Below, piece after piece: positions 41,069-41,951 of a stretch of DNA of 64,000 nt. The stretch is from Treponema sp. GTDB lineage: Bacteria; Spirochaetota; Spirochaetia; Treponematales; Breznakiellaceae. The stretch's first letter is position 1. Every line of letters begins with the position of its first letter. The stretch covers positions 1-64,000 of the forward strand of contig JAIRYT010000020.1 of assembly GCA_031267675.1 (NCBI GenBank), in the 5' to 3' direction. The position numbers were made by a program, and so were the translations under genes. The notes beneath the pieces were generated by a model that did no database searches, was not told the origin of the DNA, and was given only the letters and a program-made list of their open reading frames with translations.

Positions 41069-41124
41069 CCGTTTCAGGGCGGCGGCAATTCAAACCTGCA
41101 CGGAATAATATCCCCGCCGCCGCC

Positions 41125-41153
41125 TTGGCAGCACAGTATATATACTGTATATT
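41125..41153 (+). promoter_or_regulatory. hicA promoter with palindromic operator in its spacer
   Basis: TTGGCA (41125-41130) and TATATT (41148-41153) are 17 nt apart. Nearly the whole spacer is the perfect palindrome ACAGTATATATACTGT (41133-41148). The -10 ends 6 nt before hicA ATG. The antitoxin's helix-turn-helix would be expected to bind the palindrome. Confidence 0.7.
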
Positions 41154-41159
41154 ATAACC

Positions 41160-41339
41160 ATGACGGCAAAGCAGATTATGGACAAACTAAAAGCAAACGG
41201 CTGGGTGTTGAATCGGATCAACGGCTCCCATCATGTGTTTGTCAAAGACGGATGCCGCCCTGTCTCTGTTCCTTTTCAAGGGAATAAAGACATAGGAAAC
41301 CTGGCAAAAAGAATCCTCAAAGAAGCGGGGATTGAATAG
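41160..41339 (+). CDS. hicA: HicA-family toxin (mRNA interferase)
   Basis: The 59-residue protein starts MTAKQIMDKLKANGWVLNRI and has the dsRBD-like core with the active-site His in NGSHHVFVKD, then VPFQGNKDIG. HicA cleaves mRNA when free of HicB. It lies 8 nt before hicB and is too short for most ORF lists. No Shine-Dalgarno is visible before ATG. Confidence 0.93.
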   Translation: MTAKQIMDKLKANGWVLNRINGSHHVFVKDGCRPVSVPFQGNKDIGNLAKRILKEAGIE

Positions 41340-41347
41340 GAGGATAT

Positions 41348-41749
41348 ATGACCTACTACTGTACCATCGAAAAAGAGGGGGATGAGTATATAGCCCAGTT
41401 CCCCGATATGACCAATATCGTTACCTGCGGGTTTTCCCATGAGGAAGCCTTGGCAATGGCGCAGGAAGCCCTTGAAGGCTGCCTGGAATCCGATATTTCC
41501 CGCGGATTGCCTATCCCCCCTCCTGCCTATAAAGACGGCTATCCCATTCCTGTAGCAAACCATATCTCCCTGTCCCTCCGGCTCCGGGACCTCCGGGGAG
41601 AACAAAGCCAAACCGACATAGCCCGAAAACTGGGGCTTTCCTACCAGTCATACCAGCGTCTGGAGAACCCCCGCAAGGCGAATCCTACAGTAAAGACCCT
41701 TGAGCGGATTGCCCGTGTCTATGGCCGGGAATTAAACATTTCCATGTAA
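41348..41749 (+). CDS. hicB: HicB-family antitoxin with helix-turn-helix domain
   Basis: The 133-residue protein has the HicB partial RNase H-like fold at its N-terminus (MTYYCTIEKEGDEYIAQFPD, then HEEALAMAQEALEGCL). An Xre-type helix-turn-helix forms the C-terminal half (SQTDIARKLGLSYQSYQRLE). It neutralises HicA and represses the operon. AGGAGG is before ATG. The pair lies beside two tRNA genes, a common place for mobile modules. Confidence 0.94.
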   Translation: MTYYCTIEKEGDEYIAQFPDMTNIVTCGFSHEEALAMAQEALEGCLESDISRGLPIPPPAYKDGYPIPVANHISLSLRLRDLRGEQSQTDIARKLGLSYQSYQRLENPRKANPTVKTLERIARVYGRELNISM

Positions 41750-41781: not shown

Positions 41782-41863
41782 TGGGCAGTGAAGGATTCGA
41801 ACCTACGAAGGCTGAGCCAACAGATTTACAGTCTGCTCCCTTTGACCACTCGGGAAACTGCCC
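41782..41863 (-). tRNA. tRNA-Tyr (anticodon GUA)
   Basis: The acceptor GGGCAGT pairs with ACTGCCC, discriminator A at 41782. The anticodon loop CTGTAAA in stem CAGA/TCTG gives GUA. A long variable arm (class II) fits tRNA-Tyr. T-loop TTCGAAT. CCA not encoded. Confidence 0.95.
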
Positions 41864-41878
41864 TGATGTTACCATCCC

Positions 41879-41951
41879 AGCCATCTTCCGGAGTCGAACC
41901 GAAGACCTGCTGATTACAAGTCAGCCGCTCTACCGACTGAGCTAAGATGGC
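41879..41951 (-). tRNA. tRNA-Thr (anticodon UGU)
   Basis: The acceptor GCCATCT pairs with AGATGGC, discriminator T. The anticodon loop CTTGTAA in stem GCTGA/TCAGC gives UGU. T-loop TTCGACT. It stands upstream of tRNA-Tyr on the minus strand, 15 nt away. Confidence 0.95.

Follow-up and report, generated by a model that had tools for sequence, protein, structure and literature searches.

How a cell avoids making toxin ahead of antitoxin is not obvious for toxin-antitoxin (TA) operons in which the toxin gene comes first. An operon of this kind, a probably autoregulated type II hicAB pair of a Treponema-like spirochaete, lies in the window analysed here (the whole stretch of DNA, 64,000 nucleotides), and the first-pass annotation had proposed that a HicB operator fills its promoter spacer and that hicA is translated from a leaderless message. 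At the level of sequence, this interpretation is supported by the exact anatomy of the locus, by a conserved layout in related operons and by an operator that appears to track the HicB helix.

On the + strand, the hicA toxin gene (59 aa, 41160-41339) comes first and is separated by an 8-nt gap from the hicB antitoxin/repressor gene (133 aa, 41348-41749). HicA matches Pfam PF07927 with 48.2 bits, for a cut-off of 27. Its start at 41160 is supported by the relatives, which align at MTAK, MTGK or MSGK with the start codon in common; an alternative start at the internal ATG 41178 was set aside, as relatives align to the first ATG. HicB ends in an HTH_3 domain (residues 79-129, 39.1 bits for a cut-off of 23), and its residues 10-132 match the E. 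coli HicB chains 6hpb and 6u0i by sequence. The N-terminal (partial RNase H) domain PF15919 scored 22.7 bits, below the cut-off of 27, and is otherwise indicated only by the length of the 6hpb match. Within the C-terminal domain, the SYQSYQ segment (residues 98-103, codons at 41639-41656, + strand) is predicted from the HTH match to provide the recognition helix. By toxin domain, HTH and gene order, the operon is most probably a type II HicAB system of the HTH class (class 3 of PMC10865869). Directly after hicB, tRNA-Tyr(gta) and tRNA-Thr(tgt) genes are found on the minus strand (41782-41951).

A promoter scan of the + strand placed a -35 hexamer TTGGCA at 41125-41130 (most relatives have TTGACA or TTGATA) and a -10 hexamer TATATT at 41148-41153, a pair scoring 10 matches out of 12 with a 17-nt spacer. 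As the first-pass annotation had it, a perfect 16-bp palindrome, ACAGTATATATACTGT (41133-41148, no strand assigned), sits between the two boxes: it fills the spacer save its first 2 nt and shares the first T of the -10. Its symmetry and the in-register palindromes of the relatives designate it as the predicted HicB operator, and across the 64-kb window it is unique at up to 3 mismatches (0.07 expected from shuffles). The -10 does end 6 nt ahead of the hicA ATG (41160), and no Shine-Dalgarno (SD) sequence precedes that start. As sigma-70 promoters are usually numbered, a 6-nt distance from the -10 makes the A of the ATG position +1, and a pyrimidine just before +1 is the usual initiator preference. 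The A at 41160 (+ strand) is thus the predicted transcription start, given that the distance of 6 is the mode in relatives and that a pyrimidine stands at -1.

Between hicA and the upstream gene, which we take, by eye, to be chorismate-mutase-like, a GC-rich inverted repeat (41074-41128, + strand) extends its 3' arm into the -35 box. Its predicted fold has -25.9 kcal/mol (z -2.9 relative to shuffles); no T-run follows the stem, and the window scan did not call it as a + strand terminator. It may insulate hicA from read-through.

Relatives of HicB were found in 71 of the 197 genomes searched, the source genome included, and 80 loci of named genomes were kept for comparison. HicA genes, whatever the HicB type, were found in 70 of 117 genomes, and the matches of this second search were entered in part (30 as loci and 40 as further regions, not every match). 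The resulting 204 loci gave 187 HicA frames, from which we removed 23 with an unreadable start or the C-terminal part only, 18 duplicates and 1 without upstream DNA. The remaining 145 hicA upstream regions comprised 75 of the HTH class, 27 of the RHH class and 43 with neither HicB domain; these labels come from small profiles built here, and some of the last group may have such a domain. A region was counted as having the layout when the -10 of a promoter with at least 9/12 matches was followed, at 3-8 nt, by a start codon.

The layout was found in 59 of the 75 HTH-class regions (51 at the aligned start and 8 at an upstream in-frame ATG), in 18 of the 27 RHH-class regions and in 13 of the 43 others, for 3.7%, 4.2% and 2.1%, respectively, in dinucleotide shuffles. 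By eye, two regions of the third group (L082 and L085) also show it. For the remaining genes of these loci, counted from 150 aa upwards, it occurred in 12 of 166 cases (7%), a difference with Fisher p values, which ignore relatedness, of 3e-29 for the HTH class and 2e-11 for the RHH class. AT-rich operators do resemble -10 boxes, and the arrangement could have been a chance promoter-like sequence beside a toxin gene; with a conservation over phyla and HicB classes far exceeding both shuffles and other genes, this explanation is extremely improbable. In the window itself, 5 of the 48 first-ATG ORFs of at least 150 aa have a promoter 3-8 nt before their ATG, so that the genome may contain further leaderless genes. 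The occurrences before other genes, in the loci and in the window, count against the leaderless reading of hicA.

The spacing is also precise. The spacer measured 17 nt in 48 of 65 HTH-class and 20 of 26 RHH-class promoters, and the distance from -10 to start was 6 in 49 of the 77 layout regions, among them all 18 RHH cases. A pyrimidine occupied position -1 in 63 of these 77 regions, compared with 45-60% at -2 to -6, a bias in keeping with a transcript whose first base is the A of the AUG. Nine HTH-class loci show the arrangement ATG-N3-ATG (L022, L030, L045, L046, L110, L113, L129, L131 and L134, the promoter of L113 scoring only 8); in these it is the upstream ATG, and not the aligned one, that lies 5-6 nt from the -10. 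In two other HTH-class loci (L014 and L083) the upstream in-frame ATG abuts the -10 and is an unlikely start. The layout test was failed by 16 of the 75 HTH-class and 9 of the 27 RHH-class regions, some of them with an evident leader. The promoters of two RHH-class hicA genes, L023 (+ strand) and L194, contain a TACGTG repeat and lie with their -10 at 18 nt from the ATG; these genes provide a leadered contrast. GTG is a poor start for leaderless translation in E. coli, so that the GTG-started hicA genes (5 of 75 in the HTH class, 4 of 27 in the RHH class) count against the leaderless reading.

The placement of the start bears on whether hicA is read at all from this promoter. The message might begin at the AUG and leave hicA unread, the promoter serving the antitoxin alone, with HicA made by read-through or from a distant promoter. 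There is a precedent for this: according to passages of PMC10865869, PMC7167474 and PMC6957337, the HicB-repressed P2 transcript of E. coli, truncated at the hicA ribosome binding site (RBS), gives only HicB, and the first two sources state that it yields no HicA. However, no second promoter position recurred within 280 nt upstream of hicA in 70 HTH-class loci, and any separate HicA promoter of the E. coli type may be more distant or weak. Moreover, hicA would mostly be without a Shine-Dalgarno on any transcript, and to hold the AUG at the predicted +1 almost to the base, even where this means tracking a shifted upstream ATG, would serve no purpose if it were unread. We consider an antitoxin-only promoter unlikely; it is from the AUG placed at +1, and from its tracking of shifted ATGs, that we argue that the leaderless AUG is used.

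Among the 80 named loci, 55 had both a readable hicA start and an HTH HicB, and 45 of these showed the layout. With group labels taken from record titles, many of them of metagenome bins, these were 27 of 32 Spirochaetes, 9 of 9 Geobacterales, 4 of 4 other Deltaproteobacteria and single loci each of Omnitrophota, Marinamargulisbacteria, Magasanikbacteria, Neomarinimicrobiota and Phycisphaerae; among the named loci whose hicA start could be read, the layout was absent from 3 of 3 Fibrobacterota and from the single loci of Desulfovibrio and Gallionella. Within the source genome, three hicAB operons (L001, of the RHH class, and L002 and L003, of the HTH class) carry three different palindromes, each with a spacer of 17 and a distance of 6, and a fourth HicA gene (L004) is without this 17/6 layout. 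The design thus appears conserved, its spacing being kept across several bacterial phyla and both HicB classes. In many relatives hicA is interrupted or shortened (L008, L012, L013, L037, L060, L065, L068, L071, L105, L106 and L117 among them) and the operator-promoter is often intact, as if the toxin decayed first.

The spacer of the HTH-class promoters is frequently symmetric: 30 of 65 have a centre in the spacer around which 7 or all 8 of the scored pairs are palindromic, versus 3.6% of shuffles, and the palindrome centre was located 7 nt before the -10 in 53 of 65. With the same 8-pair score, at least 7 pairs were found in 7 of 26 RHH-class promoters (1.7% of shuffles), a weaker signal than in the HTH class, and it is the latter that carries most of the case for an operator. 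For this class, operator half-sites were set against the HicB helix, 11 of the 75 rows being omitted for lack of an in-register operator or of a helix motif. Helix YQ[A/Q/N]YQ pairs with the half-site ACAA, KYQVYQ in most cases with ACACC, SYQVYQ mostly with ACATC, ACACC or CAGC-type half-sites, and NWTFYQ with ACTAC. When HicB residue 101 is A, Q, N or F, base 4 of the operator is A in 34 of 34 cases, and in none of the 22 cases with V is base 4 an A. The mutual information between the two positions is 0.93 bits, a value reached by none of 2000 permutations; among 25 representatives at 70% identity it is 1.08 bits (none of 5000 permutations), still inflated by shared ancestry. The window operon is one of the serine-101 group, in which the right half-site reads CTGT in 7 of 8 cases; its own site is perfectly symmetric because the matching change is present in both half-sites. 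The operator sequence thus varies by subfamily, in step with the predicted recognition helix of HicB, and the spacing is constant. Another HTH-class operator, of the ACCAAATATATTTGGT type, occurs in L190 and L200 with a similar layout, a different helix motif and, by eye, -10 to start distances of 7 and 9.

At its other end, the operon carries a strong signal for translation of the antitoxin: hicB retains the AGGAGG attributed to it by the first-pass annotation (41338-41343, + strand), which overlaps the hicA stop codon and lies 4 nt ahead of the hicB ATG. With hicB taken to start at the first ATG close to the stop codon of hicA, SD matches of 4 nt or more preceded hicB in 58 of the 69 HTH-class operons and in 21 of the 23 of the RHH class; for hicA the numbers were 13 and 6. 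The better match belonged to hicB in 58 of the HTH-class operons and to hicA in 7; in the RHH class it belonged to hicB in 20 and to hicA in none. In the set of upstream regions, 16 of 75 HTH-class hicA genes are preceded by an SD-like match of 4 nt or more, which counts against a leaderless rule. Alternatively, transcription might start farther upstream, the palindrome, still an operator, being carried as a hairpin in an SD-less leader. A weak hairpin could form in such an RNA, but the region is no more stable than shuffles (z 0.67), for which reason an RNA hairpin was rejected, and the only recurrent promoter is the one in register with the palindrome; a leader of this kind is very unlikely.

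We therefore favour, with a probability of about 0.7, the reading in which HicB autorepresses a promoter yielding a message with leaderless hicA and Shine-Dalgarno-led hicB, so that derepression gives more antitoxin than toxin. The C-terminal HTH of HicB, as a dimer judging from the operator symmetry, would bind the palindrome between -35 and -10, and HicB in the spacer would shut the promoter by keeping RNA polymerase out. Shortage of HicB or excess of HicA would open it, and transcription would then begin on the A of the hicA AUG. HicA would be translated weakly from this 5' AUG, and hicB, on the same mRNA, by means of its strong SD. In this scheme HicB binding, the 5' end of the transcript and the HicA/HicB translation ratio are what we infer from the DNA. 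The layout suggests a built-in means of making less toxin than antitoxin: a promoter locked on the AUG would be a simple answer to the toxin-first problem without a second promoter, combining HicB repression at one site with low leaderless synthesis of HicA relative to SD-driven HicB. Conditions that favour leaderless initiation are predicted to tip the balance to the toxin, and the pairing of operators with helices provides a naturally occurring panel for studies of repressor specificity. A general rule for toxin-first TA operons, in which the antitoxin operator fills the spacer, the start is locked on the toxin AUG and the toxin is always initiated leaderless, is more doubtful, and we put it forward only tentatively. 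If true, the toxin/antitoxin ratio would be a readout of the ribosome pool and its state (70S, initiation factors), and the operator sequence would be an exchangeable cassette on a fixed chassis.

The closest known system is hicAB of E. coli K-12 (promoter P2, operator hicO; Turnbull & Gerdes 2017). As described in passages of later papers, it resembles the window operon in having the toxin first, an HTH HicB matching by sequence, a palindromic operator in the hicA-adjacent promoter and a transcript shortened at the hicA 5' end. It differs in that its nearest -10-like sequence, TATACT, is separated from the GTG start by 18 nt that include GGGAGG, which makes the P2 message RBS-truncated rather than leaderless, and in that a separate promoter, P1, is described as making HicA; no P1-like promoter recurs in the present relatives. 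Regulation of the window operon would thus be related to, yet distinct from, that of E. coli P2. For hicA3-hicB3 of Yersinia pestis and hicAB of Burkholderia pseudomallei, with RHH HicB, passages of PMC11594946 describe HicB binding to promoter-overlapping palindromes; these operators overlap or flank the -10, unlike the spacer-filling one here, and a leaderless start is not described in those passages. Leaderless TA genes as such have been reported: from the parts of the sources consulted, starts map to the first codon for 32 of 37 TA pairs in Mycobacterium tuberculosis (PMC3898074), and three toxin-first pairs of Synechocystis, of toxin families other than HicA, have a start distance of 0 (PMC4963859), neither account tying this to operator position. 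Autoregulated leaderless genes are also known from lambda cI and paaR2, where, in the excerpts of PMC8630535, the leaderless gene is the regulator and not a toxin, and leaderless mRNAs are described as common in the spirochaete Leptospira (PMC5243855, in part). In the titles, abstract openings and passages of the open-access literature on leaderless transcripts and hic or toxin-antitoxin genes, no description of a leaderless hicA was found. A leaderless hicA under a spacer-filling operator would represent a new form of HicAB regulation, with good comparative support.
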